Shown here: one piece after another, positions 10,086-60,883 of the stretch
How positions within the stretch are numbered: the first letter of the stretch is position 1
Layout of the letters: each line of letters begins with the position of its first letter
Origin: Diplocarpon mali
Taxonomy: Eukaryota; Ascomycota; Leotiomycetes; Helotiales; Drepanopezizaceae
Length of the DNA: 60,883 nucleotides
Direction: 5' to 3'
Assembly: GCA_024741835.1 (NCBI GenBank)
Contig: JAENRP010000239.1
Span: forward strand, 7,585 to 68,467
The notes under the pieces: generated by a model
Told to the model about the DNA's origin: nothing
The model's input: the letters and a program-made list of their open reading frames with translations, nothing else
The model's database searches: none
Made by a program: the position numbers and the translations under genes

Positions 10086-13000
10086 ATGGCAATAGCTTCT
10101 GATTCTAATCGAAATACTAGACCTAAAGACCTTTAACTCTCTTAAAAGAATTGATAATAATAGTTCGACGATTTAGAGCTTTACTTTAAGAGTAAAGGTA
10201 TCGAAATAGCGATTTAAAAGATACTTATTAAATATGCGAGAATAGCCCCTTATACTCCCTTTACTAATTCGTCTACTTCTACTTTAATAGCTAATATAAC
10301 TGCTAAGGATTTGCCAAATATATTAAATAAGCTTAGCTTAAGAGCTTTAGTAGATAATAACCGAGAATCCTAAAGGCAGATTTTAAATATAAAAAAGGAG
10401 AAGGAGTATAGGCTAGCCTTAGCTAAATGCAAGCTTAAGATTAATAGAGGTTTAAGTGATAAAGACTAAGATTTTATTCGAGTTTATAATAATAAAAAGA
10501 TAAGATAAGATACTTTAAAGGTAAAATACTCTTAAACAACTACCCTTAATACCTAATATCTATTATAGTAGATCACTTTATTTTAATATAAAAAAGATAA
10601 AGATAGTAAGGATATAGATATGAATATAGACTTTGCCTAATCTATATTATATAAAGTAAGAAGGAAAGTAAAAGCTATAGATCCTAGGATAACTATAATT
10701 TTTAAGGAAACTTAGCTTTTTAATTTCTTATTTAATAGCCTCCCTTCTAAGTTTGCTATTGCGAAACAATCTCTTCTTATCTAACCTAACCTTAAGATCT
10801 ATAAGAAGATCGACCTCCTTTAAACTATTAAGCAAGACCTTAAAGGACGCTCTAAATCGGCAAATGCCGCATTATAAGATAATAATAAGCCTAAGAAGAG
10901 GAAAAAGCGCAGGACGAGCCCTTAAGCTTATCGGGGATACTACTTCTATAATAGTACTTATAATATTACTAATTGTAAAGTTAAAAGGCAATTAATTAAT
11001 ATAATCGCTAGCTTTAATATTAAGAAGCAATTAAAGCAGAAGTTAAGAAGCAAACTACCTTTATCCTACCGAAGGCCGCAACTACTAAAGAAAGGCAAAG
11101 GAAAAGGAAAAGGCTATTTAGCCAAAACTTCAGCAGATACTTCTAATAATAATAATAGGTTATTTAAACCTAAATCCACTTTCGAAAATTCAAACAATAA
11201 TTATAATAAAAATGCCTATATCTTAAAAGCCGATCTTCGTAAGATCCTTAAATCTAACTAGTATAGTAATACTAATTGTATAACATATATAACTAATAAA
11301 CCCTACCTATTTAAAAGCCTACTTACTAAAATAAAAAGGCGCTTTATTAAGGTTAGTAGTAAAAGGTTATATATAAACTTAATAGGTATAATAGAGATAA
11401 ATATCGCTAGCGTTTCTTTCCTTTTATAAAATATTCTCTTTATATCTAGCTTAAGTATTAATCTTTTATTTAATTATAAGATCTATATAGAATTAAATTA
11501 TATAAGAGTTTTTAATAATCAATTTATATAGTTTATAAATAACAATTATAAAGTGATCTTTAAAGCTAAAATTAAAGATAGACTTTATATTATTTTAAAG
11601 GTAATATTATAGAAATTAACTCTTAAGACAGACTTATAAGTGGATTCCTTTAAAGAAAGTGCACTCTTTGCCTTAATATAATTAAGCAAGGATAAGGAGA
11701 ATAGATAGACTCTTAAGCTAAGATCGCAAGTGAAATTTGCGAAAATAACTCTTAAGCTAAGACTATAGGTAGATTACAAAGTATTTTTAAAGATAACTCT
11801 TAAGCTAAGATTATAAGTGAATTTAATAGAAATAACTTTTAAGCTAAGACTATAAGTGGATTCTATAGATTCGCTAATAATAACTCTTAGGCTAAGATCG
11901 CAAGTGAAATTTATAGAAATAATTCTTAAGCTAAGACTATAAGTGAAATTCGCAAATTCGTTAGAATCGACTCTTAAGCTAAGACCGCGAGTAGATCTTG
12001 CGGTTTTATTAAAAATGACTCTTAAGCCAGGCTCGCAACTGGAAAATGGTAAAACCTCGAACTACTATTACTAGTCCTTTCTAGCTATTAATAATAAAGT
12101 ATCGACTAATAATAGGCTATTAAAGCTATTAAAAGCCAAAAGCCTATTAAGGTATTAGCTAATATATAAAAGATTCGCGCATTTAAGGCTAAAGAAATTA
12201 AAAGGCTTATATAAGGTCTTAACTTTAAAATAGAAGATCTAAGTACTAAAGGATCGCTTAGTATGCTAAATTTGCAAGCTAATAAAACTTCGAAATTAGA
12301 TGCAAATTAAGCTTAGTTTATAAAAAGATTCGATACTAGCGCTAATATCTATTAATATTACCAGACTATTTATAACTTTAATTAAAAGAAATAATTGGTT
12401 TTTTTAAATAGTAGATAACTCTACTTAATAGATATAGACTATTTGCATTAAGACTAAATCTAAGCTTATAGAAAAGTTGAAAACTTAGAAAGTGATAGAG
12501 GAATACTAGACTTAATTAAAGCTAATAGCTATTAGGTTTAATAATATATTAGAGATTAAGGTAAAGCTTAATAAATAGGTAAAATAAGGAATTTATTATA
12601 AACTAATTATAATATATAAAGGTTCTTATTAAAATAGCATCGCTAAGCGAAGCATCTAATAAGTAAAGACTAACTATTGCGCTCTATTATAAGATGCTAA
12701 CCTACTATTAGAATTCTAAGACCTTACGATTAAGGCAGACGTATACCTGCGAAATAGAATAAGTAGTAGACTAATAGTTAATAGCACTTAAATATTACTA
12801 TATAAGGCATATTTTAAATAGAAACTAAGCTTAGACTATATTCGCATCTTTAAAAGCGTTTACTACTCTTATATTAGCTTAAAGTCCTGGCCTATAGGTA
12901 TAAAGAGTAAAAAACTAATAGACTAAGGTAGAGAGTATATATTTATTAAGTATATTAAATAAATAATAAAGCAATAGATAGTATATACGCCAGATTTAAG

Positions 13001-15119
13001 GTAAGTAATTGTATCCTTAGTAGTTGAGTTTAATAAATCTTAAAATAGGAAGGAGCTATCCTTAAAGCTTTATATACTTAAAGATTTGCAAGATATACTA
13101 ATCGACGGTAATACTATTAAGCCGAATTAATAACCCCTCTCTTTTAGCTTAAGTATATTAAGTGCACTTACTAATCGACGACCTGCTAATCGCCTAAAGG
13201 CTAAATAAACTATTCCTATTATCTGCGAACTGCTTAAAGTATAGAATAACTTTAATATTATTATCCCTTTAGCTAAAGTACTTATAATAAAGGATATTCT
13301 TAAAATAGGTATAAGTAATAATAAGCCTCTACTATTAGAAAGCGGTTCCTTAAATGATAAGCCTATAAAACTTATAGCCGAACCTATATCTTTAAAGAGG
13401 AATAGAGATTTAGAACTAGAAGATACTTTAGACAAATGCAAGTTTAAGCATATCTAGGCTATAATAGCATATAGGATCTATAAGCTCGAACTTTAATAGA
13501 GCCTTAATAAAGATAATGCGTTCTTAGCTACTAAAGGGATAAAGAAAATCTCTCTTTTAAAGATATATAATAAAGCTATTAATAATCTAAAGAATAGAGT
13601 AGTATAAAATGAGGCAATTTAAGAGGAGATAAGTTCTCTTATTGCAAATGGTATATAAATAGAGGAATTAATGCTAAAGGATATGAACTTAGTTTTAATA
13701 AAGTAGGTCTTTATAATTAAGATATATGCAAATAGGACCTTAGAATATTATAAGGTAAGGCTTATAGCTAAGGGCTTCTCCTAATAGTATAAAGAAGACT
13801 ACTTTAATATATTTGCGCTAATAGTTTGCATAGATACCTTTTATATATTTATAATAATAGTAGCTGCTAAGGACTTTAAATGCAGATAGTATAATATTAA
13901 AAATGCATTTACTAAAGCGATTATAAAGGAATAGATTTTTCTCTCCCAACTTAACGGTATTCCTATATATGCTAGTCACTCTCTTTATATACTCTATAGT
14001 ATCTATAGGCTTAAATAATCAGCCTATAATTAGAACCTCTTATATAGCTCTACTTTAATAGAAATAGGATTCGTTTAAAGCTTAGCTAACCTTTATCTAT
14101 TTACTTATATTAAGCGTAGAATCAAGTTGCTATTATATATTAATAATATTATTATAGCTGCAAAGATAACTACTTAATTAAATTAGTTCTTTATAATAAT
14201 TCGAAAACGTTTTAATACTAAGGATCTAAAGGGAATTTATAAGATCCTTAGCATCTATATTATAAGGAACCGCTTTACTTAAGAACTCTAGTTAAATTAA
14301 GAGTAGTATATTAAGAAGATCCTAGACCGAATAGGACTTTCCGCTTATACTTCTAACTTTAAGCTAAAGCGTATTCTAATCGAAGGAAAGTATAATAAGT
14401 TAAAGCCTACTAATGAAAATGAGTAAAGAGGAGATCTAAAGAAGTACTAATAGGATATTAAAGCGATTATATATACTATAGTATATATAAGACCAAATAT
14501 CGCCTTTATTATTAAACAACTTAATCAAAACCTAAAGGATCTAACGATTTAATATAAGAATGCAGTTAAGCGACTTAAAAGATACCTTTAATTAATAATC
14601 ATATAAAAGGTGAGATATAAACTAATAAAATATATAAGCGCAAAGCTTAAGGTATATACTAATTCCGATTAGGCAAATATAAAAGGTCGGAAAAGTATAT
14701 TTAAAAGTGTAGTAATACTATATAGTAGACTTATATTATAAGGAAGTAGGAAGTAGAAATCAATAGCTACTATAAGTACTAAGGCCAAATATATATTAAT
14801 ATTATTAAATTATAAATAAGGATTATAAATCGCTTAAGTTTTAAAAGATATAGGTTTTATTAAGTATATTAGATAAGATAGGAATTATATTAATCTTTAA
14901 GCAGATAATATAAAAGCAATTATATTTATAAAGAATCCATACTTATATAAGCGATCGAAATATATTAATATTACTTACTACTTTATCTACAACCTTATTA
15001 TAAAGAATAAGTTATCAATTACTTATATCTTAATCGATCAAATAGTAGCAAATGGATTTATAAAGCTATTAAAGATAATTGTAAAGTTTAAAGCATTTAA
15101 AGATATACTAAAGTTGTAA
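10086..15119 (+). pseudogene. C1 Gag-Pol polyprotein (copia), RIP-inactivated
   Basis: ATG at 10086, then one frame of 1,677 codons with no net frameshift to a TAA at 15117. Gag about 10086-11230. Protease about 11250-11480 (T-N-C-I-T-Y-I-T remnant of the DTG active site, then a L-F-I-S-S-L-S-I-N-L-L segment). An array of nine 23-bp palindromes at 11619-12042, in frame. GAG-pre-integrase about 12150-12280 (R-F-A-H-L). Integrase to about 12990, including the E-R-S/D-V-Y-L-R-N-R-I region near 12650-12760. RT from about 13640 (K-V-R-L-I-A-K-G-F) with L-L-Y-I-N-N near 14130-14150 where YVDD is expected. RNase H about 14680-15100 (A-D-N-I-K-A-I near 14901). It is longer than most copia polyproteins, partly because of the palindrome array. 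Dozens of TAA/TAG stops. Confidence 0.93.
11619..12042. repeat. Array of nine in-frame 23-bp palindromes in C1 pol
   Basis: Copies begin near 11619, 11709, 11756, 11795, 11833, 11882, 11924, 11970 and 12018, spaced 38-90 bp. Each reads about ACTCTTAAGCTAAG followed by ...AAGT; the last (12018) is closest to the GC-rich form, with CTTAAGCCAGGCTCGC. The copies at 11619, 11709 and 12018 are exact multiples of three from the gag ATG. The array encodes T-L-K-L-R-L-x-V repeats between protease and GAG-pre-integrase. Confidence 0.88.
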
Positions 15120-15438
15120 AAGATAGTAGGGACTTAGCAGGCTTAAGGATAACTCCTAGGCCCGCCTTGCGAATCAGGTTATATAGTCTTATAAAGGAAA
15201 GTTTTTAAATCGACTCTTAGGCTTAAACCGCAAGTCAAGCTATATAGTCTTATAAAGGAATGCTTTTAGGAAATTTGACTCCTAGTCCTGCCCTGCGAGT
15301 AAGGTTGGTAATTTTAATAGAAGTTGCTATTAATTAATTATTTTTAATTTAAAGAGATACTTAAGAGTTAGATTAGCGCAAAAGGATAGTTGCTATTTTC
15401 CTAACTGCAGGTCAATTGGAGTAAGGTCTAAGTAGGGG
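15120..15438 (+). other. C1 3' untranslated region with tandem palindrome units
   Basis: No gene. Three palindromes (15152-15174, 15213-15235, 15278-15300) are each part of a repeated unit of roughly 63 bp that also contains TATAGTCTTATAAAGGAA. The region ends in a purine stretch, AAGTAGGGG, against the right LTR at 15439. Confidence 0.75.
15152..15300. repeat. Three 23-bp palindromes in the C1 3' UTR
   Basis: 15152-15174, 15213-15235 and 15278-15300. The third retains CCTAGTCCTGCCCTGCGAGT. Confidence 0.82.
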
Positions 15439-15638: not shown

Positions 15639-16531
15639 CTTTCGATATATCGCCTTAAAGGAACTTAACTTATAAGCCTGGCCCGCGAGTCAAATAAGAG
15701 AATTTTATCACTTAACTACTTAAGTGACTTTAAAGAAATCGCAAAATTTTTAATTACGCTTAAACGACTAAAGATAGTTCCTTTTAAGGATTTTCAAAAG
15801 TTTAAAGCTAAAGCTCTGATTTATCTAATATAAAGAAGGAGATTATTTAAAAGGAGCGATAACTCATTTCCTATATAATTCTATTTAGATAATAATAAAT
15901 TGCAAGCTAAAGCTATTTAAGATATTTATAAGGAGACTGGCTATCGAGGAGCTAAGTTCACTTACTACTAACTCTTAAGAAAATTCTTTTAGAAAGGTTC
16001 TTTTAAAGACTATAAAGCTTTTATAAAAAGTTGTATCTCCTATTAGAAATGAAAACCTAATTGTAAAGAAAATCTCCTATTCTTAACTTAGCTATTAGGC
16101 CTTTTCTATAAAGTCAGTCTAGACGTTATATAAGTACTAACTACCGAAAATGGAGTAATATATTTTATTTTAATAAAGGAAGACCTATTAAGATAGCCTA
16201 AAGGATAACCTTTAAGATCTGCTAACTTTGAATCTATTATAAAGTTCCTTTAAGAAGACGTGGTCTATCGCTATAGACTTTTTAATAGATTAACTATTAA
16301 TAGAGGCCTTAAAAACAAAAGAGTAGTTAAAGCTTTCTTGCGAAAATATAGCATTAAGCGGGTTTAAATCTTAGCGTATAACTCGAAAGCTAATAGAATA
16401 GTAGAATAAGGATATTATAATATTCTTAATAGTCTATCTAAAGTTACTTATAGAGGATTTAAGAATTAGATAAAACACTTTTATAAAATACTTTTTACTT
16501 ATAAAACGATAATCTATAAACCGACTAGAAT
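15639..16531 (+). pseudogene. Family A integrase, N-terminal and core part (copy 1)
   Basis: Plus-strand continuation after C1. The linker 15639-15830 contains a palindrome at 15668-15690. Then comes the integrase zinc-binding region (I-Y-K-E-T-G near 15915-15940, with C-I-S-Y near 16035) and the core. Near 16290-16400 it encodes N-R-G-L-K-N-K-R-V-V-K-A-F-L and Y-N-S-K-A-N-R-I-V-E, the D-x35-E region of Ty3/gypsy integrases. It is interrupted at 16532 by the C2 target duplication and resumes at 35541. Confidence 0.87.
15668..15690. repeat. 23-bp palindrome in the A copy 1 RNase H-integrase linker
   Basis: Arms ACTTATAAGCC and GGCCCGCGAGT. Copy 2 has it at the homologous place, 51569-51591. 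Here the pol frame reads the palindrome as L-x-S-L-A-R-E-S, not as T-x-x-P-G, so this is an exception to the usual frame. Confidence 0.8.
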
Positions 16532-16778: not shown

Positions 16779-17030
16779 CACCCCTCTAGGGAGACCTTTA
16801 AAGGTACTCGCCAGCAATATATATGATATTATAACTTTTGTTATAATCTACAGTTTCGTATGAAAAATCAACCTGCAGATATTGGAAATAGAGTAGAGTT
16901 CGCTAGCGCGAAATCCACCTCTTAGTAAGTCAAAATCAACTCGCGGGCCCGGCCCGGGAGTAAAAAAAATCACCCCTTAATAGAAGTGCAAAAAAAAATC
17001 ACCTTGAAATAGAGGTGCAAAAAAAATCAC
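16779..17030 (-). other. C2 3' UTR with palindrome and three 28-bp tandem repeats
   Basis: Minus-strand 3' untranslated region, unusually little changed by RIP (several CA and TG remain). A palindrome at 16939-16961 has arms ACTCGCGGGCC and GGCCCGGGAGT, the least eroded copy in the window. Directly beside it, 16962-17046, are three units of A-rich spacer plus TCACC...GGTGC. Each unit can fold as a small CACC/GGTG hairpin. The left end holds the purine tract (minus strand). Confidence 0.75.
16939..16961. repeat. Best-preserved 23-bp palindrome (C2 3' UTR)
   Basis: Arms ACTCGCGGGCC and GGCCCGGGAGT around a central C; 10 of 11 arm positions pair. It lies in the noncoding end of C2. Confidence 0.9.
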
Positions 17031-25399: not shown

Positions 25400-25467
25400 A
25401 CTTATAGGCCAGGCCTAAGAGTGGAATTAATCTGCGCTAAAGTTACCTATAGGCCAGGCCTAGGAGT
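25400..25467. repeat. Two palindromes in the G4 RNase H-integrase linker
   Basis: 25400-25422 and 25445-25467, 45 bp apart, both giving T-x-R-P-G-L-x-V on the minus strand. Confidence 0.85.
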
Positions 25468-27329: not shown

Positions 27330-27397
27330 ACTTGCAGGCCAGGACTAGAAGTAGGATTCGAGTTTGCAGATTTTACTTATAAGCCGGGATTAGAAGT
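27330..27397. repeat. Two palindromes in the G4 protease-RT linker
   Basis: 27330-27352 and 27375-27397, again 45 bp apart. On the minus strand both give T-S-x-P-G-L-x-V. Confidence 0.8.
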
Positions 27398-29149: not shown

Positions 29150-29172
29150 ACTTATAGACCAGAACCGGGAGT
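29150..29172. repeat. Palindrome in G4 gag
   Basis: 147 bp (49 codons) from the gag ATG on the minus strand, in frame, reading T-P-G-S-G-L-x-V. A decayed second copy (T-A-N-P-G-L-R) lies near 29222-29246. Confidence 0.75.
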
Positions 29173-29319
29173 AGGATTTGTATTAAAGGAGGTAGCTTCC
29201 TAAGTAAGCTCTAGAAGGGGAATATCTCTAAGACCGGGGTTGGCAGTAAGGCCTATAGAACTAGTGGCAATAAGGCCTAGTAGAGGTACAGTTAACCTTT
29301 TACTTCTCTTAAGTAGCAT

Positions 29320-32282: not shown

Positions 32283-32359
32283 ACTCCTGGTCCCGGCCTA
32301 AGAGTGAAATTACTATTATTGTAAGAGTTAGAATTGACTCGCGGTCCCAGCCTAGGAGT
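32283..32359. repeat. Two palindromes in the C2 integrase-RT linker
   Basis: 32283-32305 and 32337-32359, 54 bp apart; the second has arms ACTCGCGGTCC and GCCTAGGAGT. Confidence 0.87.
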
Positions 32360-33746: not shown

Positions 33747-33835
33747 ACTCCTAGGCCCGGCCCGCGAGTGGAAATCGGTCCTAAAGAGGAATCGCCTCCT
33801 AGTAAGGAATTGACTCTTAGGCCTGGCTCGCGAGT
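33747..33835. repeat. Two palindromes in the C2 gag-protease linker
   Basis: 33747-33769 (arms ACTCCTAGGCC, GGCCCGCGAGT) and 33813-33835, 66 bp apart. They encode T-R-G-P-G-L-G-V and T-R-E-P-G-L-R-V on the minus strand, in the same phase as the pair near 32300. Confidence 0.9.
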
Positions 33836-35540: not shown

Positions 35541-36240
35541 TATTCTTCTTTATTTATAGTAGAGAAGTATAGCTCCTTCTTAAAGCTTAATAGCCTATTT
35601 AGAGATTGTTCGACTATAAACAAATTCAGAGCCGTTCCGATTTGCTAGTAATAAGATGCCGATAACTTAAGCTTTAAGATATAAATATAGAAGAAATCAT
35701 TTTGCAAAAGAAACGATATAAGGAAAAAGCTAAAGAGGTATAAGCTACTTCTAAAGTACTTAAAACGCACCCTATTTAGAAAGATGATCTTATCTTAATC
35801 TATAATATCGTAAAAAGCATTAATATATTAGTAGATATTAAACTTAACTATTAATAGCTTAGCCTATTCAAAGTCAAATCCAAGCAGAGAGAAAAGGGAT
35901 ATTATTCTCTTTAAGAACTTAATAGAGTCGATATTAAAGGAACGTTCGCAGCTAATCGACTAAAGCGCTTTTATTGATACGATTAGACCTTATTTCCTTT
36001 AAAAGACGAATTAAAAAGCGATATAACCTTCGAATCTTTTATAGAAACCGACGGCAATATAAGCAATTTTGAACCCTTGGACGAAGACGGAGATTTTCCT
36101 AACTTAACCTATAAACCAGTCCCGCGAGTAAAGAATATCAAAATACCTAACTAATTATAACCTTAAGTTATTATTCCTAAAATATCCGAAGAACGCAAGC
36201 GAGAATACTAAACAATTTCCTAGCCTATTAATTATCTTGC
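35541..36240 (+). pseudogene. Family A integrase C-terminal part (copy 1)
   Basis: Continues after C2 with the segment following the integrase core. Near 35786-35960 the frame encodes D-D-L-I-L-I-Y, a Y-Y-S-L-x-E-L-N-R-V-D-I-K-G-T-F and a A-N-R-L-K-R-F-Y segment, typical of the SH3-like tail of gypsy integrases. A degenerate palindrome at 36107-36129 (T-Y-K-P-V-P-R-V) lies in the tail. The pol end is not sharply defined. Confidence 0.82.
36107..36129. repeat. Palindrome in the A copy 1 integrase tail
   Basis: Degenerate left arm ACCTATAAACC, right arm GTCCCGCGAGT. Copy 2 has the equivalent at 53003-53025. Confidence 0.65.
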
Positions 36241-36523
36241 CTTTTTGCAATCCTTATTTTTACATTTTCGGCAAAGTCGCTTCCTTTATTATTTAAGATA
36301 TAGATCTTTTAGGATCATTCTAATATCTTGCCTACTTTAACCTATTTTTGCATTTTTAATATTGACCTTTAATTATAGCATTCCTATTACTTTCCTTAAA
36401 TAATAAATAAAAGTCCAATTTCCTTAATATATATATAGTAACCCTATTGCAGCTTATATATCCTTTTAATTCTTATATCTTATTAAACTCTCTTATCCGC
36501 ACTCTATATCTTTTATAAGTAAT
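36241..36523 (+). other. Spacer between pol and U1
   Basis: AT-rich, no frame. The same spacer lies at 53135-53419 in copy 2, ending with a conserved TATATATATAG stretch and a pyrimidine-rich lead into the ATG. It may hold the promoter or leader of U, but no precise element can be named. Confidence 0.5.
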
Positions 36524-37817
36524 ATGCCTTTAAAGAACTCGCAAATGGTTTTATCTACTATAGTAGGGGACGAATAAATAATAGTTATAAATTTCTCTTA
36601 GGATAGTAGAGCTATTGCTTTATTAGAGAGCTTTAAATCGACCTATATAGCCTTTGAAGATATAGAGTAATAAAAACTCCTTTTAGCTTACGCGAATGCT
36701 ATTAATAACCTTTCAACCTAAGTGGCCTTTGGAATTCTCTAATTTAACGACTTCTTAATTAAGGAATTGAGATTAAAAGGAATCTCTAGAGAGGAATTCT
36801 TAGCTAACGCAAATCAATATATAACCTTAGCTAATACTTTTAAAATGAATTAAGATAAAAGGGAAGAATATATTTAACGATTGGATAATTCAACTACTAA
36901 TAAGAGAGGAATCTTATTTCGTTCTTGCTTTTTAATAAATATTAACTCAAATAATAGGAGGCGAGTTATATTAAAAATCCTTAAAGAAAATACTCCTACT
37001 ACTAAAGCTATTTAAATTCTGAATTTCTTTATTATTGAAAAAGGAGTAGTAAAGTTCTAAGGCAATCGAATTCGCGGCTGTAGATTTATAGGCTTCTTTA
37101 ATATAGTATTTATAATAGCTAATAGTATTATAAAAAGATCAAACTAAACTATATATATTACCTTACCTAATAGTACTATTATTAATATGCTAAGGCTTTG
37201 CGCTTTTGCTTATAGATTGCTTATTTTAAAAGAGAACTAGACTCTTATATTAAAGTTTAAATAGGATTACTTTAATAATAAAGAAGGGAATTGGTTATTT
37301 ATAGTCATGCCTATCTTAAAACCTGCTCTTTAGCCTAAAGATATAATAAGTGGTGAATTATATGATTTGACTCGCGGTCTTGGACTAGGAGTTAGAAGCG
37401 AAAATTTTAGAACTGGACTTAACCTGCCTTTTATTGAAATGATTTTAGAAACCGCTGCTGAACAAACTGCTTAAACGCTTAATATAGCTTCTTTAGAATT
37501 TTCGGAATCTTCAAAGGACTTTCCTTTAGTTAGATAACCCATTTTAGCGCAACCTTAAAGAAGGATAGATCGTTCGATAGCCACCTTAGCTGATTTACAA
37601 TTTAAAACCAGAGGATTGCGCGCCTATTTAGACTCCTTCTTTAATAACTTAAAAGAGCTAGTTCTTAACTTCTTTATATTTATATATAACCGTTTTAAAA
37701 ATAATAATATAAAGGAAGACCCTATTCCTATTGCTTTAAAGATAGCTAAGAGAGCTATTAGATAGATTTAATGGCTTATCTTAAACGAGTTCGCCCCTAC
37801 GGATATTATTTAATTCT
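36524..37817 (+). pseudogene. U1: unknown frame after integrase, truncated by copia E
   Basis: ATG at 36524 (M-P-L-K-N-S start). It is collinear with U2 without indels over at least the first 846 bp: the palindrome at 37370-37392 sits at codon 283 in both. In-frame TAA/TAG take the place of Gln/Trp. Conserved features: N-F-S-x-D near residue 23, F-N-D-F-L near 74, a helical, Leu/Ile-rich first 250 residues, then T-R-G-L-G-L-G-V from the palindrome. No signal peptide, membrane segment or catalytic motif that I recognise. About 430 codons remain before E interrupts at 37818. Function unknown. Confidence 0.75.
37370..37392. repeat. Palindrome at codon 283 of U1
   Basis: Reads ACTCGCGGTCTTGG then ACTAGGAGT. 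Same codon position as 54266-54288 in U2. Confidence 0.85.
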
Positions 37818-43982: not shown

Positions 43983-44029
43983 TTATTATTACTCACTAGA
44001 GCATAAGAACCCAGATTCTATAAATATTA

Positions 44030-45857: not shown

Positions 45858-46551
45858 GGGACCGATTTCTTAAGATTTCCGTCCTTATACAACCTTATCG
45901 ATCTCTTAATTTATAGATAAGAGACTGGCCTTTGAAATACGTCTTTAAAATACTTATAGCATTTTAATCAACTTTAAAACCCTTATCCTTAATCGCTTAG
46001 TTATTTAAAACTATCGATTTTCGTTTAGCAACTATTAATAACCTTAGACTTTCCCTTTTTAGCTCTACTTTAAAAACCCTTATTCTCTTCCTTAACTCCG
46101 AGATTTTCGGAATTTTCGGCTTCCTAGTATGAAAAGTTTGGCGAACCCTATAATAGCAATCTTAAATAGCAGTGGTTTCGAGTACTTAAGTAATACTAAG
46201 CGTAAACTCTAATTGGAAGTGCCTCCTTAAAATCCTTAGAAATCCGAATTTGATAATTCAACTGCCTTAGCTCGATAAAATTCTAAAAATTGCCTTAGAA
46301 TCGTCTCTAAAGACCCCTTTATTCTAAAGACTAATAGGAATTAGCTTAAAGGCTAAGAAGAATCTTAGATATAAACCTTATCTTAGAAATTAGTCTTAAA
46401 TTAAGTAAACCTTATCTTATTGCAATTAGTTGCAATACTCCTATTAGCTATTTAGTACCTACTTAAAATCTTTTAATAAACTTAGATTAAACTTTTAATA
46501 GAATCCGAAATTCCACTCTTAGGCCTGGCCTATAAGTAAGAGGATAAAAAG
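45858..46551 (+). other. Family A leader (copy 2)
   Basis: AT-rich, no frame recognised. It contains a palindrome (46515-46537) 37 bp before the gag ATG, out of phase with it, so this copy is untranslated. No clear primer-binding site was recognised after the LTR-like block. Confidence 0.5.
46515..46537. repeat. Palindrome in the family A leader
   Basis: Arms ACTCTTAGGCC and GGCCTATAAGT; untranslated, just before the gag ATG. Confidence 0.85.
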
Positions 46552-49430
46552 ATGTCCTTAAACAACTTAGGACTGCCACTTACTTTTTTAATATTAACGC
46601 TTGAAAATACTAATAATAATAATAATTTTAAACTTTTTACTAACCCTTTATCCGAATCTTTTTAAACTCGTCCTAATCACTTTAAGATTGACTCGGATTC
46701 TGAATGCTCTTTAAGCCCTTTTGAATTTCGAAGTACTCCTTTTAGTAATCAATCTCGCAATATTAAAGCTTCTCCTTTACCCCTTATAGATTCTATTAAC
46801 TTAGACAGTTAGTATAAAATAATAATAGCCGCATTTAGGGCTATTATTAATCACTTTCCCCTCTTTAGTTCCTTTAGCGCTTTTCACTTTATAGGCGCTA
46901 ATATTACTAATTTCCTTAAGTAATATAAGGAAACTTATTACGATTTTAATATTATATAAAAGGATATGATTTCTCGACTTCCTTACTACTATAATTATAT
47001 AAGTAAGGATATTATTAAGTCCTTTCTTAAATGGAAAACTTATAGTTTATAAGAACTCCTTATTAAGGCCCTTAAATCTGAATTTCGCGAATTTAATAAA
47101 TAGTAGATTTATAATACTTTAGCTTTCTTAAAGGAATTTATTCTAATCACTTATACTCCTAAGGAATTTAAAAACTACTATTAGACTTTTACTTATATAT
47201 TAAATACCTTAATCAACTAGAAAATACTTAGCGAAGTTGAAAGAGGCCGCCTTTTCTTACTTAGATTACCTACTGACCTTTGAAATAAGATCATTAAGCA
47301 TTTTAGGATTAATAAGCAAGACCTTATAACCTTTGCCTTATTTAAGGAATTCTCGGCCTTTGCTTTAAAATCAGATCTTAATAAGAGAACTATTAATACT
47401 ATAGAATAGGAAAAAGCCCTTACTCCCTTTTATACTAAAGACCTTAAGAGCCTAGTCCAAGAATACTCAAAGGCTTTGGAAGTTATAAAGGAGGTAAAGA
47501 AGAACCTAGTGGTTATACCTTTTACTCGCAGTCCCGACTTAAGAGTAAGATCCAACCTTAGAATTAAAGAACTTAAGACCTAATTTATAGAACTCTGAAT
47601 CTAAAGCTTAGAAACTAGAATTAATAATCTCTTATAGGAAAAATAGCATATTCCCTAATTTAGTAATAGGTAAAACTTAGCTATTATAAGCTAATATAAT
47701 AGTTCCTATTACCAGACTCTTACTTCTTATTATTCGAAACAACTAGCTAATATAAGAACTTAATAGTTAATTAAAGAAGGAGAAATTAATCTTAACCAGC
47801 ACTCTGCTAATATTAATACTATAGGGTATTAAGGGAATGGCAATAGAAGACAACTAACCTGCAACTTTTGCAATAACAAAGAACTTAACTGCGCTTTATA
47901 TAAGTATCGTAATAATTGCCCTCTTTTCTATTGTTTTATTAATACTAGGGTTATATATATTAATAAGTATAAGATGCTTTATATTAAAGATCCTAAGCCA
48001 GAAGCTATCCTTATTAAAAAGCACTAGAATCGCTTATAATTACAGACTATTCGAACGATAATATATAATACGAAATAGGACGAGAATTTAGTCGAATAAT
48101 AGCGTATTATAAATATAAATGCTAAAATTCCAACTTATATATATATTAATCCAATTAGCAATCTACCTAAGGGAGTTCTTAAGGACTTAGCTTTTAATTA
48201 AATAGCTATAGAAGTTAAAGGCATCTTTATCTTAAGATAGGTTAATAATAATGTATCTGCTGATATTAATGCTACTTCTATATTTAGAAACCCTTAGAAT
48301 ACTTAGCGTCCTTTTAGATCTACTACTCCCTTAATACTAATAAAACCAGCTAAAGTCTAGAAATCAATGTATATAACTTAGGAATCTTAATATAGAGTCT
48401 AAACGCTAAAAGATACTTAATAATTTAGAACTGCAATAGATAAGGATAAAGCCAATATAGCAAACGAATTGATCAGAGATATAATAGACGAAGATAGCTC
48501 TAAGCTTAAAGATTAAGAAGTTAAAGTTATTACGCGGACCCTTAACCTTAAGCGAAAGAGATAGATATTAAAATAGGAGAAATTCGTTAACAAATACGCT
48601 AGTTCAACTATAATAAAGAAAGCCGTAGAGAATATTATAGCTTAGCAAATTAACCTTACGTTTAAAGACCTATTTAGTTTAATTAGACGCTTTAATAAAG
48701 TGCTAAGAAAGTATATTTTAATTGCCTTTAAAGATTTGAATAATAATAAGGAAATGGAAATTATAATATAAAAGAACTCTAAGAAGCACTTAGCCTTAAT
48801 TAAATGTCTTTAGATTGTAAAAGATAAAGGAACCCAGAGGTATTATAATATTATAGTAATAGCTTTAATATCTTAGAATATTAATTGAAATTGTTTAGCA
48901 ATTGCGATAAAAAGCCTTATTATTATTTGTTTTATAAAAGAATTAGTTAAAGTAAAGGCTCTAATCGATTGTAGTTTAGAAGTTAATGTAATAATTAGAA
49001 AAGTGGCGAAAATAGCTTAATTAACAATCGTTAGCAATCGACTCCTTATTTATTCGACTATCTTTAGATCGAAATATAATTTTAATAAATAGGTGAAAAA
49101 CGTAAAGGTTAGAGTTAGAGGAATCATTAATTATACTAACTTTTTAATAATAGAGAATTCTTCGAATAATATTCTTTTAGGAATACCCTTTATTTTAGAA
49201 TCTTAGCTAATATTTAACTATCCTAGAAATAGGCTTATAAAAGCTAGCCTTTAGAATACAGATCGATCCTTAAAAGGATAAATAGTTATTATAGGAAATA
49301 TAGCCGAATTCTAAAACAAGGTTTTAAGAAACGATTAGCTAGTATAAAGGCTAGGCTTAATGCTAGTAAAGGAAGATACCTAGTAAGGAGTTATAATAAA
49401 AGAAAGGTAAGTTTGCCAATTTTGAATAAT
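46552..49430 (+). pseudogene. Family A gag-protease (copy 2)
   Basis: ATG at 46552. Gag about 46552-48110: Asn-rich start, a capsid-like middle with G-A-N-I-T-N-F-L near 46893, and a Cys-rich segment C-N-F-C-N-N-K-E-L-N-C near 47861-47893, a likely zinc knuckle. A palindrome at 47524-47546 is in frame and read T-R-S-P-D-L-R-V. The protease near 48958 has A-L-I-D-C-S-L-E-V-N-V (Asp kept, Gly to Ser) in the same frame as gag, then N-N-I-L-L-G-I-P-F near 49165. RT downstream is in the -1 frame relative to this one. Many RIP-type stops. Confidence 0.85.
47524..47546. repeat. Palindrome in family A gag
   Basis: 324 codons after the ATG, in frame, T-R-S-P-D-L-R-V. Confidence 0.82.
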
Positions 49431-49439
49431 AGCGATTTA

Positions 49440-49624
49440 ACTCGCAGTCCTAGACTAAGAGTCAAATCTGGAATTTTGAAAAATAGTATAATTAGTATTT
49501 TATCAGCTTAATAATTAAGAAAAAAGAAAAATAAGATAAAGAAGAGAGTTTATTTTATAAATTTCGATAATTTACTAATCATTTTAAAAAACTTAAAAAC
49601 CACTTATAAGCTAGACCCGCGAGT
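49440..49624. repeat. Two palindromes in the family A pre-RT linker
   Basis: 49440-49462 and 49602-49624; both in the RT frame, which is -1 relative to gag-protease. Confidence 0.82.
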
Positions 49625-51568: not shown

Positions 51569-51591
51569 ACTTGCAAGCCCAGCCTATAAGT
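51569..51591. repeat. Palindrome in the A copy 2 RNase H-integrase linker
   Basis: Homologous to 15668-15690; read in another frame (L-A-S-P-A-Y) than most copies. Confidence 0.8.
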
Positions 51592-53002: not shown

Positions 53003-53025
53003 ACCTATAAGCCGGTCCTATGAGT
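53003..53025. repeat. Palindrome in the A copy 2 integrase tail
   Basis: Homologous to 36107-36129, in the frame of the integrase tail (T-Y-K-P-V-L-x-V). Confidence 0.7.
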
Positions 53026-53030
53026 AAAGA

Positions 53031-53419
53031 ATATTAAAATACCTAATTAATCGCAACCTTAAGTTATTATTCTTAAAATATCTAAAGAACGCAAGTAGGA
53101 ATATTAAACGATTTCCTAGCCTATTAATTGTCTTACCTTCCTTTAATCCTTGTTTTTATATTTTCAATAAGGTCGCCTCCTTTATTATTTAGGATATGGA
53201 TCTTTTAGGATCACTTTAAATTCTTACCTACTTTGACTTATTTTACATTCTTAATATTAGCCTTTAATTATAATATTCCTATTACTTTCCTTGAATAATA
53301 AATAAAAAGTCCAATTTCCTTAATATATATATAGTAAACCTATTATAGCTTATATGCCCTTTTAATTCTTATATCCTATTGAACTCTCTTATTTATACTA
53401 CTTATCTTTCATAAGTAAT
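53031..53419 (+). other. Pol tail and spacer before U2
   Basis: AT-rich. The first part may still be the end of pol; the rest matches 36241-36523 of copy 1. It includes a TATATATATAG stretch at about 53322-53333. No gene seen. Confidence 0.5.
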
Positions 53420-54265
53420 ATGCCTTTAAAGAACTTATAAATGGTTTTATCTACTATAGCAAGGGATAAATAAGCACTAGTTATAAACTTCTCTTAGGAT
53501 AGTAGAGCTATTATATCGTTAGAGAGCTTCAAATCGACCTACGCAGCCTTAGGAGATATAAAGCAATAAAAACTCCTTTTAGCTTATGCGAATGCCATTA
53601 GCAACCTTTCAACCTAAGTGGCCCCTGGAATTCTCTAATTTAACAACTTCTTAACTAAAGAATTAAAACTAAAGGGAATCTTTAAAGAGGAATTCTTAGC
53701 TAATGTAGATTAATATATAACCTTGGCTAATACTTTTAAAATAGACTGAGATAAAAGAGAAGAATCTATTTAACGATTAGATAATTTAACTACTAATAAG
53801 AAAGGACTCTTATTTCGTTTGCACTTTTTAATAAATATTGATTCTAATAATAGAAGACGAGTGTTATTAAAAATTCTTAAGGAAAATACTCTTACTACTA
53901 AAGCTATTTAGATTCTTAATTTCTTTATTATTTAAGAAGGAGTAGTAAAATTCTAAAGCAATCGAATTCGCAGTCGCAGATTTATAGGCCTATCTAATAT
54001 AGTACTTATAGCAGCTAATAGGGCTATAAAAAGATCAAATTAAGCTATAGATATTACCTTACCTAATAGCACTATTATTAATATACTAGGGCTTTGCGCT
54101 TTTGCTTATAGTTTGCTTATTTTAAAAGAGAACTAGACTCTTATAATAGGGTTTAGATAAGATTTCTTTAATAATAAAGAAGGGAATTAGTTATTTATAA
54201 TTAAGCTTGCTTTAAAATTCGCTTCTTAACCTAAAGATATAATAAGTGCTAAACTATATAATTTG

Positions 54266-54288
54266 ACTTGCGGTCTTAAACTAAGAGT
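54266..54288. repeat. Palindrome at codon 283 of U2
   Basis: Collinear with 37370 (U1) and 58189 (U3). Confidence 0.82.
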
Positions 54289-55651
54289 TAGAAATAAGAA
54301 TTTTAAAATTGGACCTAACTTACCTTTTGCTAAAATAATTTTAGAAACCGCTGCTAAACAAACTACCCAAACGCTTAGCGCAGCCTCTTTAGAATTTTCG
54401 GAATCTTTAAAGGACTCTCCTTTAGTTAAACGACCTATTTTAGCTTAACCTTTAAAAAGGATAGATTATTCAATAGCTACCTTAGCTAATTTGCAATTTA
54501 AAACTAAAGGATTGCGCGCTTACTTAAACTCCTTCTTTAATAACTTAAAGGAGCTAGTTCTTAACTTCTTTATATCTATATACAACCGTTTTAGAAATGA
54601 TAATATAAGGAAAGACCCTATTCCTATTACTCTAAAGACAATTAAAAAAGCTATTAGATAGATTTAATAGCTTATCTTAAACGAGTTTGCCTCTATAGAT
54701 ATTATTCAATTCTTTAATAATTATAAAAGTCAAGAACCTAGTCTCTTAAATGCTAAGCAAGACTATTTTATCTTATAAGAAAGAGAACGCAAAGAGGAAT
54801 CTATTAATTAAGATATTTATAATTATAGTAATATGCCTCAATCGGTCATTCTTAACCTTAAGCTTAAAGAACGATATAATATTTAGGTATCTTTTATAAT
54901 AAAGACTCACTTTCGATAGTATCTTCTTAGCGTAGGAATCGAAGGGAGAAGACTTTGCGACCTTTATATTTGCTCTCTTTTAGTTTACTATAGTCTTAAT
55001 TATAAAGGATTTAATATTAATAAAACTATTAAATACTTCAAACTTCTCTATATAGTAGAAGATATTGATCTTTTTCTAATCTACTTTAATAATTAGTTCT
55101 TTATCTTTTTAAAGATACGCAAATCTAACCTATTGATAATAGAGGCATCTTTAGGTATTATAAAATTTAAGGCTAATCCTAAAGCCTTAAAGGCATTAGA
55201 GCTGATTAAATAGAATAATTCTTTCTTTTCGATATTATTAAGCAATAAATAGTAAGAGGAAATAGAGGAAGAAAGGTCAATTATAATACTTAAACCCTTT
55301 AAATGCCGCTTCCTAACTGATAATTTTACTACTAATAATAGTGCTTTTATAAGTATATTCCTCTCTATTATAAGATAAGAAGTAGAGATATACCTTTATC
55401 ACTTCTGCCTTATAGATAATACAACCTTTATACCTTTTTATTTTCTTTATAATATAATATTTAGCCTTATTTAATAAGTCCTTTGGATGCATTATAGACT
55501 CTACCTCTTAGCTATAATAGCGAAAAGTGGAGGAGCCTATTAGCTTATGGCCTACCTTAAACCTCCTTAATTAATTGGCCTTAGTCTTTATAATTAAGTC
55601 GTTTTAATAAAGAGAGATACAAATACTACTAATAAAGAAATTCTAATTTTC

Positions 55652-55674
55652 ACTTGCGGTCCTAGCCTATAAGT
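55652..55674. repeat. Palindrome at codon 745 of U2
   Basis: Collinear with 59605-59627 of U3 (codon 769); both follow the Y-R-L-Y-L region. Confidence 0.82.
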
Positions 55675-56536
55675 TAATTTTATTAAAAAGCAAGTCTTAG
55701 ATTATCAGATCCTACCGATCGGATAAGGGCCAGCTTTTAAAAGCCTTAATAGGTAGGTCGGCTCTTAGTCGATTATAAAACTCATTCTATCTATAAAGAA
55801 GATAAGTCAATAGACTTCCTAAGCACTTAGTTTAAAATTTTAACTAACTTAAATAATTGCAAAGTTAAAGTAAAAGGAGATCTTGCGACTTATTACTAAT
55901 AATAGCAATCCAATTATAGTAATAATAAAATAGGGATACCTTTTTAAAATGCTTTCAGACAATTCTTATAGGATTAATAGTTTTATAACCTTTTATAACA
56001 ACTATATAGCTATCCTTAATAAGAATACCTTGGAAAATAAGACTCAAATCTCCGATTTTATCTTTTCAATCTCTACTTTAAAGTAACCTCTAGTACTTCG
56101 ATAGATTAATATAAGTAGAACTATTGCACCTTTTAAGGCAGCTTTTCATCTTAAGAACTATAGTAGCCTTTTTAAAGCCATTATTAATTAATACTTTTAA
56201 ATAGATCTATTAGTTATAATCGAAGTATAGGAGTTATTTCTTCTTAATAAAGACGAATTGAAAATCCACCTTATAAAATATAATCAAAAGCTCTTTAACG
56301 CCCTTATTAAGGCTTAGACAAACGTTATAAATACTAAGTCGCTTCTTTATAGACTTAAGTCTTAGGAATAGTATAATAAAGTAAATGCTATCTAAGAGCT
56401 TAATATACTAATTGATAAAGGTATTATTATAAGAAAATTCGGAAAAGAGATAAACTGAGACTCTAGTATAGTATTAGACCCTAATTTAGGAACTAATCCC
56501 CTATTTTTACCCTTAAGCTTAAAAACGCTAAGACTA

Positions 56537-56559
56537 ACTCGCAAGCCTAGCTTGCGAGT
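56537..56559. repeat. Palindrome at codon 1040 of U2
   Basis: Arms ACTCGCAAGCC and AGCTTGCGAGT. Collinear with codon 1043 of U3. Confidence 0.85.
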
Positions 56560-56782
56560 AAGGTTAGACTCAGCTGGCTTAAGCTTATAAGATGGTTTAG
56601 ATAAACCTTAGTTACCAAATCTAAGGGTACTAATAGAAGATCCTTTAAAAGAGGTCCCTAAAGCTGAGAAATCGCTAAGAAATAAGAACTAACGTAAGAG
56701 AAGAAGACTCTGAAGTGATAATAGAACTAACAATTGAATCGACTTAAGCTTAGAAAATCGAGTCTACTACCTCCCTTTTTGA

Positions 56783-57300
56783 AAACTATTTAAAGAGATT
56801 GCAAATTAGAAGTTGAGTTTTTTAAGGATTATCTACTTTCTATATACTTATACCTCTTTATTCTTAACCTATTATTCTATTCTATATATATTCTTTATTT
56901 ACTTTACTCTTTATATAATTTATTCTTTGATTATTCCCTTTGTATATAACTTTCTAACACTTACCTTTAAAATATCTTCCTTACCTTTGACAATTGTCAT
57001 TTACTAATTATAGGTCCTTATATACGTCACACCCTACTTTTATTCTTACTTCTAAGCTTATTATGCCCACTTTTCCTATATGCACTAGCGCGATTTCAAA
57101 CTCTATAAATAAGCCTCTCCTTATACTACGATTTTACTTTTTTTACTTTTTTTATAACCCTACTAGACCTATAATACCAGCACTACTACTATTATCTTTT
57201 ATTATTAATCTTTTCTAATATAAGCCTCTTATATTATTAATCTTTCTTAAATAATTATCTCTTTATTTAAAACTACTCCCCTTTTACTAAATAATTTATT
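56783..57300 (+). promoter_or_regulatory. Spacer between U2 and U3, with TATA-like sequence
   Basis: 518 bp of T-rich DNA. CTCTATAAATAAGCC at about 57099-57113 is a good TATA-box form, about 190 bp before the inferred U3 start, followed by pyrimidine-rich sequence as in fungal promoters and leaders. Two short open frames here (56813 and 56994) look like chance. The limits of the promoter are inferred only. Confidence 0.45.
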
Positions 57301-58188
57301 ATAGCACCACCGAGCTTAAGCAAGAGAGCCATACCTAAGAAGAATATATCAATTATAGCTTTGGGCAGCAAACCCTTAAACACTGCTAATAACAAACTAA
57401 TATTAAAGGGTAACTTTTCATAAGATAGAAAAGCTCTAAGATCATTAAAAGATATAGTAAGCACCTATAGAATATTAGGTAAAATAGAATAGCAAGTATT
57501 CTTAAACTCATCTATAGAAGTATTAAACTATAGAATTTCTACTATAGAAGAAGGATTTTTAGACTTTAATGATTTTCTTGAGAATAAGCTTAAGATAAAA
57601 GGGATCGATTATGAAAAATTTCTATAGGAATATTAGAGGTATATTAATTTAATAGATTTGTTTTAGAAAAATCGAAATAAGAAGAATAAGTGTATAAAAA
57701 GATTATTACAGTTTATAAGTAGTACCTATAGTATACTTTTCCAAACCTACTTTATAACTAATATTACTACTAATAACGCCCTGCAGGGGCTTAGCAAAAT
57801 CTTTAAAACATACTAACCTATAGCAAAGGCCATATAGGTATTAAATCATTTCACCATTTAAGAAGGTATGAAAAAGCTATAAGGAAATAGCATTAAAGGT
57901 AGAAAATTTATTAGGTTCTTAAGCACTATTATACACTCTACTATTTAAATTATAAAAGATAAACCCTTATAGTATAATAATTTTGCACTTCCTAATTAAA
58001 CTGTTTTAAATACACTTAGCCTTTAATAGTCATAATATAGTCTACTTATTATAAAAGAAAAGATGACTTATCTCGCTAAGTATACTATAAATTACTTTAA
58101 TAATAAGTTAGAAAGATAGGAGTTTGTTATCCCTATCACTTTAAAAATGCTATTACCCTTAGTAGGAATAATTAATAAGGAGAATTTA

Positions 58189-58211
58189 ACTCGTAGGCCT
58201 GGCCTATAAGT
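58189..58211. repeat. Palindrome at codon 297 of U3
   Basis: Arms ACTCGTAGGCC and GGCCTATAAGT; T-R-R-P-G-L-x-V. Confidence 0.86.
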
Positions 58212-58374
58212 AGAATTAGCACATAAGGAGAATGTCCCTAAGCCAGAGGTACTTATAATACTAGGAACTTAAGCAGCTGACCTACCTGACTACTATTCCT
58301 CTAACTCAGACGAATTTAAGTCATTATCCCTAGAAATGCCCCGAACACCTCGAATACTAATAGCAAAGAAAATG

Positions 58375-58397
58375 ACTTATAGGCCCAGCCCATAGGT
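58375..58397. repeat. Palindrome at codon 359 of U3
   Basis: Arms ACTTATAGGCC and AGCCCATAGGT; no counterpart seen in U2. Confidence 0.8.
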
Positions 58398-59604
58398 TAA
58401 TATACGTAACGTTATAGACTTAGAAGATAAATTATCTAATAAAGAAATAAGCACTATCACTAATATGCTAGAAATTTTTAATAATACTAAAAAGGATACT
58501 GCTAATATTATACAATCTTTCCCTAATAACCTATAAAAATTTGTTCTTAAATTCTATAAGTTAATAATAAAGCGTTTAAGAAAAGAAGGTCAAGGAGAAG
58601 TCTTATTAGTATAGGAAAGGATAACAAAAGCCGTTAAGCAGATTATAAAACTGCTATAAGACGAATTTTCTATAGATAATATTATATAATTCTTTATTAA
58701 GCATAAGAAATTGAAGGATAACTTCTATATTCTTAAGGAGAAATCCGAAGTCAATACAAATATCATCTTTATAGAATATTATCAGGTCCCTTTTAATATA
58801 AAGATAATACTATAGTATAGCAATAGTTTTAAGATAGTAGTAATACTAGAAATAAAGATAAGACTTATAAAGTTTATAATAGGAATATTTAAAGACTTCA
58901 ATTTTGAAAAGTTCTGCGCCTTTTATAAATGCTAATATACGCAATACTATAGATTAGCAACAATAGGCCTTACTAATAAAGATATATTATCTAATATCTA
59001 CAAATTTTATACCGCTCCTAATCCGACCTTATTTTTATTACATCTAGGAAATTATGCAATTATAGCCACTAGCAATAGAATAGCAAGCTAAGTTAAGAAG
59101 GATATATTATTAAGCTTCTCCAAGTTCAAAGTAGCACCTAAAGCCCTTAAATTGTTTTATAATATCGCATAGACCCCTGCCTAATATAACGCCATATTAA
59201 CTATTAACAACTTTATATTATTCTATAGCAAAGGCTTTTTAAATATGCCTAAGTTATTTAGCTGCGCCTTTTTAAGCGCTGTGCATATATATAGTCATAG
59301 TAATTGTAAAAAGAATTCATTTTTAACATTAGTATAAAAAGAATTAAAAATGTACCAATACTACTTCTAAACCTTAGATAAGAAGCCAAACCCCCCCTTT
59401 ATCTACCTCTATAATATAACTTATAGCTTAATACAATAGATACTAAGGATATATTATAGATTATACCTAAGTGCTCTACTAACTTAATATAAGTCTTTAT
59501 ATAAACTAATAACGTATCCTAAGCCTATATAGTTTATTAGAATTAACTACCACTTAAGAGTTATTACTACTAAGATTAATGCTAATATAAGATTTATAAG
59601 ATTG

Positions 59605-59627
59605 ACTCCCAGGCCTGGCTCGCGGGT
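59605..59627. repeat. Palindrome at codon 769 of U3
   Basis: Arms ACTCCCAGGCC and GGCTCGCGGGT; T-P-R-P-G-S-R-V. Confidence 0.86.
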
Positions 59628-60426
59628 TAATCCACCTGATAATAGAACTATTAACTATTACGTAATTCTAATAGTTAAACAATCGACTAGAGAATTCGCT
59701 ATTTAGGAAAAATCCTATGAATTATCAAATCTTATACCCTAACACCTTAAGAATACTTAATAGATCTCACTGAATCTGGCTTGAAATGCAGTATAATAAA
59801 AAGAATTAAATACTAAAGAAAAGACACTTCTAAAGGAGTATATCTCTAATAAGACGACTCCGTTCTCTATATTTACTAAACAAGGCATATACATTAATAT
59901 AGAATCTGCTAAAGAACTAGGAAAAGGTGGCTTTCTTACTATTAGCAATAACTATATAGAAGTTATTAGCAATAACTTACTAAAGAATAGCATAGACCTA
60001 GAAGATTTTCTTATTAATTCTATTAGTATAAAGAGACCTAGTACTGCGAGATAGAGTATTACTAAAGAATCGTTAGCCAAATTTCGTATAACGCTTAGTA
60101 TAATAAAAGGAGGCCTACTATCAAAGGCACTCGTAAGGAAACGGCTATAGAATAATCTATTAATAGTAATAATAGTAAAGGAGTTATTCTCCAAAGATAT
60201 AACTCAATTAATAATATATTTAAAGAAGTATAAGTAGGAACTTTTTAATAATTTTACCTATACTTAAAAGCTGATTCAATAGTTAGAGCTATAACTATAT
60301 AAGGATAAGTCTTAGACTAAGACGAAAGGCACTAATGATAATATTAAGGCTAATAATATAATTGATAAAACGATCCTTCTCGAAAAGTATAGCACTAAGA
60401 AACCTTGTGCTAAACCCTTTGATACA

Positions 60427-60449
60427 ACTCCTAGGCCTAGCCTGCAACT
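60427..60449. repeat. Palindrome at codon 1043 of U3
   Basis: Arms ACTCCTAGGCC and AGCCTGCAACT; T-P-R-P-S-L-x-L. Confidence 0.8.
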
Positions 60450-60774
60450 CGTATTAACTAAAGGTAAAGAAAAGGAAGTATTATCTATTAAATTACCCGC
60501 CTTATCCCCTTTTACAATAGAAGACTCTTTAAAGGATGATAATAATAATAAAAGGGATAATAATAATAATACCATAATATAAGTCTCCCTCCCTATTGGC
60601 AAAAGCTATTAAACTATACTAGCATCTTTACAAAATACTAAAGCTCCTGCAACACTAAGACCGGACTCTTCTAATACTAATAGTAAACCATTAAAAAGAA
60701 GTAGGCGCTCTATAAAAAGAGTATTATCTAATAATAGTTCTCCCTATCCTTTAAAAAGAATTAAGGAAAATTGA

Positions 60775-60883
60775 TATCTAGGTTAATACTATTTTTAATT
60801 ATTTTTATAACTCTATAGCTTATTTGTTTATTTTGCTAGTTTCGTTTTCTAACTCCTAGGCCCGGCCTATAGGTAAAAAGTAT
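60775..60883. other. AT-rich tail with a palindrome at the window edge
   Basis: After the U3 stop the sequence is T-rich with no frame. A palindrome at 60852-60874 has arms ACTCCTAGGCC and GGCCTATAGGT. The window ends nine bases later. Confidence 0.6.
60852..60874. repeat. Palindrome after the U3 stop
   Basis: Arms ACTCCTAGGCC and GGCCTATAGGT; untranslated. Confidence 0.85.

Follow-up and report, generated by a model that had tools for sequence, protein, structure and literature searches.

A 23-bp palindrome read in frame in unrelated retrotransposon families of the fungus Diplocarpon mali

The stretch of the Diplocarpon mali genome analysed here (60,883 nucleotides, hereafter the window; assembly GCA_024741835.1, contig JAENRP010000239.1, positions 7,585 to 68,467 of the forward strand, numbered below from its first letter) contains relics of copia and gypsy elements and of a repeat family without a recognised domain, in which a short palindrome, ACTCNNRGGCCNGGCCYNNGAGT, recurs. 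The motif scan found 35 window copies with at least 13 of the 18 fixed core positions matched, against 1.7 on average and 4 at most in 30 first-order Markov resamplings of the window, and against 2 matches for the reversed motif as a control. Over the whole assembly (49.37 Mb in 676 contigs), 315 exact palindromes were counted and none for the reversed motif; with up to three mismatches, the numbers were 5,605 and 40, respectively. The palindrome is far more frequent than expected by chance. It is real, ordered, and unusual, being a protein-coding palindrome in retrotransposons of a fungal nucleus. No COX1 match was found in the assembly and no mitochondrial contig was recognised in it; the copies occur on contigs of up to 560 kb, which speaks against a mitochondrial location. 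A host protein of 723 residues has 94% identity to a protein of D. rosae, and two transposon proteins from palindrome-carrying families match proteins named D. coronariae, in line with a genome in or next to Diplocarpon. Rfam and tRNA scans of the window gave no match.

Sites were grouped by flank homology in a sample of 20 loci of 10 kb around exact matches, the window, and four small tubulin loci; the 20 loci were picked on the first listed contigs, so that the sample is not random. The 177 palindromes of this sample fell into 106 sites and 29 classes, 22 of which are recurrent and all represented in the window. The remaining seven (classes 22–28) are weak singletons that pass only a cut-off of 13 or 14, are probable chance matches, and were excluded from the 22; among them is the weak match at 12877, probably also due to chance and the sole window copy outside the recurrent classes. 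A preliminary description of the window, made from its letters, had counted 36 palindromes; the number is essentially right, but the copies are not independent insertions, as, of the 35 found here, 34 belong to the 22 recurrent classes, either as members or as tandem units. From the common order and spacing of the classes in the loci, these were assigned to five families: F1 copia (classes 6 and 7), F4 copia (0, 3, and 4), F5 gypsy (1, 2, and 5), F2 gypsy (16–20), and F3 (8–15 and 21). The status of the carriers as long terminal repeat (LTR) elements is based on reverse transcriptase (RT), RNase H, or integrase domains: RVT_2 in F1 and F4, RVT_1 and RNase H in F5, and RNase H and a weak H2C2 in F2. 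F3 gave no Pfam or NCBIfam match and has no recognised RT; it is a high-copy family (window 53003–60874; L005:451–7650) with two tandem open reading frame (ORF) relics of ~1,000 residues each that are 29% identical. Altogether, about 20 non-homologous positions in two copia, two gypsy, and one unassigned family hold the same 23 bp, in agreement with the earlier assignment to different element types. All 20 further stretches around exact copies, and all 12 stretches chosen from the 56 listed matches of a motif-peptide search, belong to the known classes. The features of the window are as follows.

2403..9002, − strand: F6 gypsy relic, sister of F5, unoccupied at the class 1 and class 2 positions
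10203..15002, + strand: F1 copia relic, host of the class 6 array, frame with stops; RVT_2 E 2.4e-17, 56% identity to D. coronariae P0123
11619..12040, + strand: class 6, one palindrome at 11619 and three more (11883, 11970, and 12018) in a tandem array
15152..15300, + strand: class 7, palindromes at 15152, 15213, and 15278, spaced 61 and 65 bp, 3' of F1 pol, read as noncoding
15668..15690, + strand: class 20 copy, flank match to 51569; no pair found in the paired-flank test
16939..16961, no strand assigned: class 0 palindrome, 18/18 core matches, read as noncoding
25400..25467, − strand: F5 gypsy, class 2: a pair of palindromes spaced 45 bp, flanked by RNase H and the integrase zinc-binding region
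27330..27397, − strand: F5 gypsy, class 1: a pair of palindromes spaced 45 bp, lying upstream of RT
29150..29247, − strand: F5 gypsy, class 5: palindrome and a weak second one where gag is presumed to lie, a region that gave no domain match
32283..32359, − strand: F4 copia, class 4: a pair of palindromes in the linker that joins the SH3-like domain and RT
33747..33835, − strand: F4 copia, class 3: a pair of palindromes in the linker that joins Gag and the protease-type domain, in the opposite orientation (TRxPGPGV)
36107..37392, + strand: partial F3 copy carrying class 21 at 36107 and class 9 at 37370
46515..46537, + strand: class 16, judged noncoding, at the left edge of the gag frame of F2
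47524..47546, + strand: class 17, in phase, F2 gag region
49440..49624, + strand: classes 18 (49440) and 19 (49602), both in phase and upstream of the RNase H domain of F2
51569..51591, + strand: class 20, coding but not in phase, in the linker of F2 that joins RNase H and H2C2
53003..60874, + strand: F3 repeat family with classes 21 (53003), 9 (54266, 12/18), 10 (55652), 8 (56537), 11 (58189), 12 (58375), 13 (59605), 14 (60427), and 15 (60852)

The copy at 15668..15690 looks like part of a second F2 fragment. Class 0 was seen at the same site in 12 loci including the window, and in 12 of the 20 further stretches; elsewhere, it lies ~1.9 kb beyond class 4, downstream of the F4 RT.

The preliminary description had assumed open, translated frames in the window, which are not there: no closed ORF of 200 residues was found, and the frames are full of stops and visible only as stop-poor phases. 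In the window and the 20 loci, TpA/ApT is 1.42 and (CpA+TpG)/(ApC+GpT) is 0.73. An excess of TpA with a shortage of CpA/TpG is the usual sign of repeat-induced point mutation (RIP), and the window copies are RIP-broken relics. The coding claim therefore rests on phase and on less mutated relatives; less mutated copies and proteins of D. coronariae confirm the peptide reading. None of the 14 ORFs of at least 180 residues in the fetched loci contains the palindrome.

Seventeen classes are judged coding, and in 16 of them the reading is T-x-x-P-G-x-x-V (phase 0; binomial at 1/3, 2.7e-7), so that the single reading phase proposed earlier holds with class 20 (51569/15668) as the exception. The bias persists when three F3 pairs are merged (13/14, 6e-6), and also when classes 16 and 21, judged noncoding from the stop pattern on both sides, are counted as coding (16/19, 7e-6). 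The classes judged noncoding (0, 7, 15, 16, and 21) have no preference for phase 0, with 0, 7, and 15 being mixed and 16 and 21 being in phase 2 of the nearest stop-poor frame. Automatic frame choice was split among the members of classes 2, 10, 13, 14, and 17; for class 2, GC-rich copies such as L035, in which the array translates free of stops in phase 0, decided the matter, and for class 17, frame inspection did, whereas the call for class 10 rests on two of its three members. Class 3 (TRxPGPGV) and class 4 (TPGPGPRV), which reside in one F4 protein, are oppositely oriented relative to the coding strand and share one phase; because of the symmetry of the 23-mer, a reverse-complemented copy in phase also encodes a Pro-Gly peptide. 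Two orientations in one phase do not arise from duplication of a coding repeat alone, but DNA insertion can give them.

Where domains are recognised, the coding copies lie outside them. No Pfam match (scans of sets of 8 and 6 proteins) covers a palindrome of the 10 coding classes in F1, F2, F4, and F5, classes 5 and 17 being in stretches with no Pfam match nearby. Class 6 is placed between the protease-type and pre-integrase regions of F1, and an intact relative carries the array as TPGPGPRV. An AlphaFold model of P0123, computed to assess disorder of the array, had a mean predicted local distance difference test (pLDDT) score of 37 on a 4-row alignment and was too poor for use. In the less mutated class 6 arrays (L050, L054, L056, and L058), the antisense strand is also open over 141–146 residues with TRGPGLGV repeats, because the palindrome is symmetrical.

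Within families, the palindrome is inherited, and movement after the spread of a family was not seen. In the paired-flank test, it was present in every copy with both flanks paired, and it measured 23 bp at single sites, confirming the fixed length given in the preliminary description, and more at sites with tandem units; a few rows were shifted by 1–5 bp where the alignment ended or ran through T-runs. This test yielded no second pair for classes 17 and 20, and no empty site was found among paired copies in the fetched 261 kb. In joined-flank searches, with the flanks fused across the palindrome, 40 of 239 candidates for class 8 and 40 of 176 for class 2 were scored. At class 8, exactly 23 extra bases were present in 40/40 and no site was empty (0/40). 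At class 2, again 0/40 were empty, and the extra bases numbered 23 in 9 copies, 68 in 23, 113 in 6, 158 in 1, and 77 in 1, i.e., 23+45n bp in 39/40 scored copies, or 1–4 units; gain or loss of 45-bp units is thus seen at this site. Occupied-query searches, which favour occupied copies and are secondary to the joined-flank searches, listed 40/40 copies without a 23-bp gap for each of classes 16, 8, 11/12, and 2, all listed rows of class 2 being two-unit. There is no sign of a currently jumping element, and the palindrome is probably not jumping today. The comparison of occupied and empty sites suggested in the preliminary description thus yielded no empty copy, and the present-day mobility considered there is not borne out, as every pairable copy holds the palindrome at homologous positions.

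The consensus with its short symmetrical edges is RATTYS-ACTCSYRGGCC-N-GGCCYRSGAGT-SRAATY. Weak symmetry runs ~6 bases past the 23 bp, with T favoured at −3 and A at −5, and position −2 is C or T in 44/44 arms of the 22 class representatives. When the arms were compared for a target duplication, with no empty site at hand, the edge bases were symmetrical and not directly repeated. The unit may therefore span about 35–36 bp, which would equal 12 codons. Within families, no constraint on the core was found in 15 classes: at low power, transversions per pair-site were 0.007 in the core and 0.011 in the flanks, and transitions 0.125 and 0.100, respectively. A core changing about as fast as its flanks fits a passive passenger. 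In addition, the variable dinucleotides at positions 6–7 and 17–18 of the 23-mer are pyrimidine–purine (CG, TA, CA, or TG) in 122/122 copies with at least 15 matches, one base of each dinucleotide belonging to the search motif; the pattern is as if an original CpG keeps mutating.

Related elements without the palindrome were found for two carriers. An alignment of F6 with F5 gave 607 identities over 1,119 columns (54%), and F6 lacks the palindrome where F5 has classes 1 and 2; in the window, no palindrome precedes the one at 11619. D. coronariae P0132, an F4 relative with 87% identity, has two copies of TREPGPGV between Gag and the protease-type domain and three of TPGPGPRV ahead of RT, whereas the units are absent from the covered linkers of P0133–P0137 (43–49% identity; two from Rhynchosporium), P0137 ending before the second linker. 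Because F6 and these copia relatives lack it, the palindrome appears from sequence comparison to have been gained separately, or gained and lost, by different families. Inheritance from one ancestral element, the possibility that the preliminary description set against its own reading, does not fit carriers of copia, gypsy, and F3 type with palindrome-free relatives, and the repeated acquisition by different element types with frame-compatible placement put forward there is supported. A larger common unit with longer shared flanks was considered and rejected, since similarity of the flanks between families beyond ~6 bp does not exceed that of random arms (best 20-bp match, 15 identities versus 13–20). 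The array spacers of F1 and F5 are similar (V-x-S/F-A), which is a hint only. A gypsy relic at 20401–23400 (+) and a weak copia match (E 0.0035) at 42002–44401 (−) are also without palindromes, so that the LTR families of the genome do not all carry it. Apart from the repeats, overlapping open frames of 131 and 128 residues occur on opposite strands at 38828–39223 of the window and look low in complexity.

On balance, we consider it somewhat more probable than its alternatives together that each family gained the palindrome as a short selfish insertion and then multiplied, leaving a tolerated hitchhiker that is not moving now. The 23-bp palindrome would have been inserted into each family before that family multiplied, with another carrier element as the putative donor, and most likely by template switching, in which a hairpin-forming segment is copied during reverse transcription inside a particle that contains RNAs of different families. 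Coding DNA would thereby gain an in-frame T-P-G-P-G-P-R-V or, in the other orientation, T-R-G-P-G-P-G-V; selection would keep frame-compatible positions and remove other phases, the peptides of the LTR elements outside recognised domains would probably be tolerated, and untranslated DNA would keep no phase. The abundance of the palindrome across the genome would then be due to copying of the host elements and not to jumps of its own; after arrival it would vary as 45-bp tandem units, as shown at class 2. The fuller proposal, namely a nuclear protein-coding palindromic parasite of retrotransposons that hopped between unrelated families by reverse transcription and whose peptide is acceptable both ways, is put forward more tentatively, at less than even probability.

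Several observations weigh against this proposal of early selfish insertion. As no family offers an empty site, insertion was not directly seen, and the inserted unit and target duplication are undefined; moreover, the linkers are variable in relatives, and unoccupied relatives do not separate insertion from loss. The reverse-transcription route is extended by inference to F3, which has no recognised RT, and simple RNA template switching does not predict the orientation switches. Phase 0 also holds the fewest stops within the palindrome (14 in forward phase 0, 78 in phase 1, and 84 in phase 2 among 201 copies with at least 15 matches; 2, 4, and 12, respectively, of 40 copies in eight GC-rich loci), so that part of the phase bias needs no selection on the peptide. 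The two F3 halves share palindrome places in classes 9/11 and 10/13 at 29% identity, and these pairs look older and more constrained than a casual hitchhiker; either the palindrome there is old and kept, or the same places were hit twice. RNA folding is only modestly better than that of shuffles (z of −1.8, −2.5, 0.2, −2.9, and −2.9 for five single copies).

The retention of the two F3 pairs across the duplication would suit a needed cis-acting signal, for RNA dimerisation or packaging or as a binding site of a dimeric protein, kept or convergently acquired. Every carrier family has at least two sites, the palindrome is present in translated and apparently untranslated DNA alike, and Ty1 RNA is described in the accessible part of PMC5454406 as dimerising via kissing loops. 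We nevertheless regard such a signal as rather improbable, because the core shows no clear excess of conservation over its flanks within families (at low power), the sister family F6 is unoccupied at classes 1 and 2, and the positions and numbers of sites differ by family, with 1–4 units at one site. Selection could instead act on the peptide, as a flexible Pro-Gly spacer or a processing site between polyprotein domains, the palindrome being a by-product of CCN-GGN codons. The single phase of the coding classes outside recognised domains in the LTR elements, and the arrays in intact D. coronariae proteins, would be expected on this account. Five classes judged noncoding retain the palindrome without phase 0, however, the complementarity of the ACTC/GAGT ends extends past the Pro-Gly codons, reverse-complement copies occur within one protein, and transitions build up as in the flanks, and we hold this account to be improbable. 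Slightly less credence still is given to a nuclear mini-element that is still mobile by its own insertion mechanism and quiet in this strain, akin to miniature inverted-repeat transposable elements or GC clusters: the symmetrical edge motif with its invariable pyrimidine at −2 (44/44 arms), and a size and symmetry resembling those of mitochondrial GC clusters in the excerpts of the literature available, would agree with it, but 0/80 scored copies are empty at two sites, every sampled exact copy lies within the five families, and no target duplication could be made out.

Among known systems, early selfish insertion followed by multiplication of the host families would find its closest counterpart in behaviour in the Rickettsia palindromic elements (RPEs; PMC2229807, PMC6649704, in the parts accessible), an analogy already drawn in the preliminary description and supported here. 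According to the accessible parts of PMC2229807 and PMC2996958, RPEs are palindromic repeats found both in noncoding DNA and in frame in unrelated proteins (PMC2229807), they have counterparts in Wolbachia and Methanocaldococcus, and protein-coding palindromes typically fall in unstructured segments. The present palindrome is likewise in frame in several proteins and present in noncoding DNA, across five families. RPEs are 105–146 bp with 12-bp terminal inverted repeats, bacterial, and located in housekeeping genes (PMC2229807, same part), whereas the unit described here is 23 bp (~35 bp with its edges), fungal and nuclear, arranged in part in tandem arrays, and so far seen only in high-copy repeat families; the comparison is one of behaviour, not of sequence. 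With its 23-bp core and fungal genome, it is not a member of the RPEs, but it works like them.

A second likeness is to the palindromic amphipathic repeat coding elements (PARCELs), tandem in-frame coding repeats that contain a palindrome and have been reported from eukaryotic microbes as well (PMC2996958, accessible part). PARCELs encode a 25-residue amphipathic motif, DUF285 (PMC2996958), unlike the 8-residue Pro-Gly motif of the present units, which are ~13–16 residues long and occur also in apparently noncoding DNA; no DUF285 Pfam match was found in either scanned set (8 and 6 proteins). Fungal mitochondrial GC clusters and double-hairpin elements are also short, sporadically spread palindromes, which the accessible parts of PMC4478555 and PMC7218506 describe as mitochondrial and mostly intergenic, with presence/absence variation and short flanking direct repeats for yeast GC42. 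Here, in contrast, the sites are mostly coding, no empty site was found, and the contigs are without a COX1 match. No nuclear fungal counterpart was met in the literature at the level of titles and abstract openings, most subscription papers being outside this coverage, and the word stem "palindrom" has no occurrence in the available text of the Diplocarpon and Marssonina genome papers.

Spreading protein-coding palindromes have been described in some bacteria and an archaeon, with tandem PARCELs also in eukaryotic microbes, and how they move has stayed open (PMC2229807, PMC2996958, accessible parts). With several thousand copies, tandem alleles differing by 45 bp, and unoccupied sister families, the D. 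mali palindrome would make the transfer step testable, and its presence in nuclear retrotransposons would suggest that unrelated retroelement families exchange short sequences. If the fuller proposal of hopping between unrelated families is true, the palindrome would be a fungal nuclear counterpart of the Rickettsia palindromic elements.

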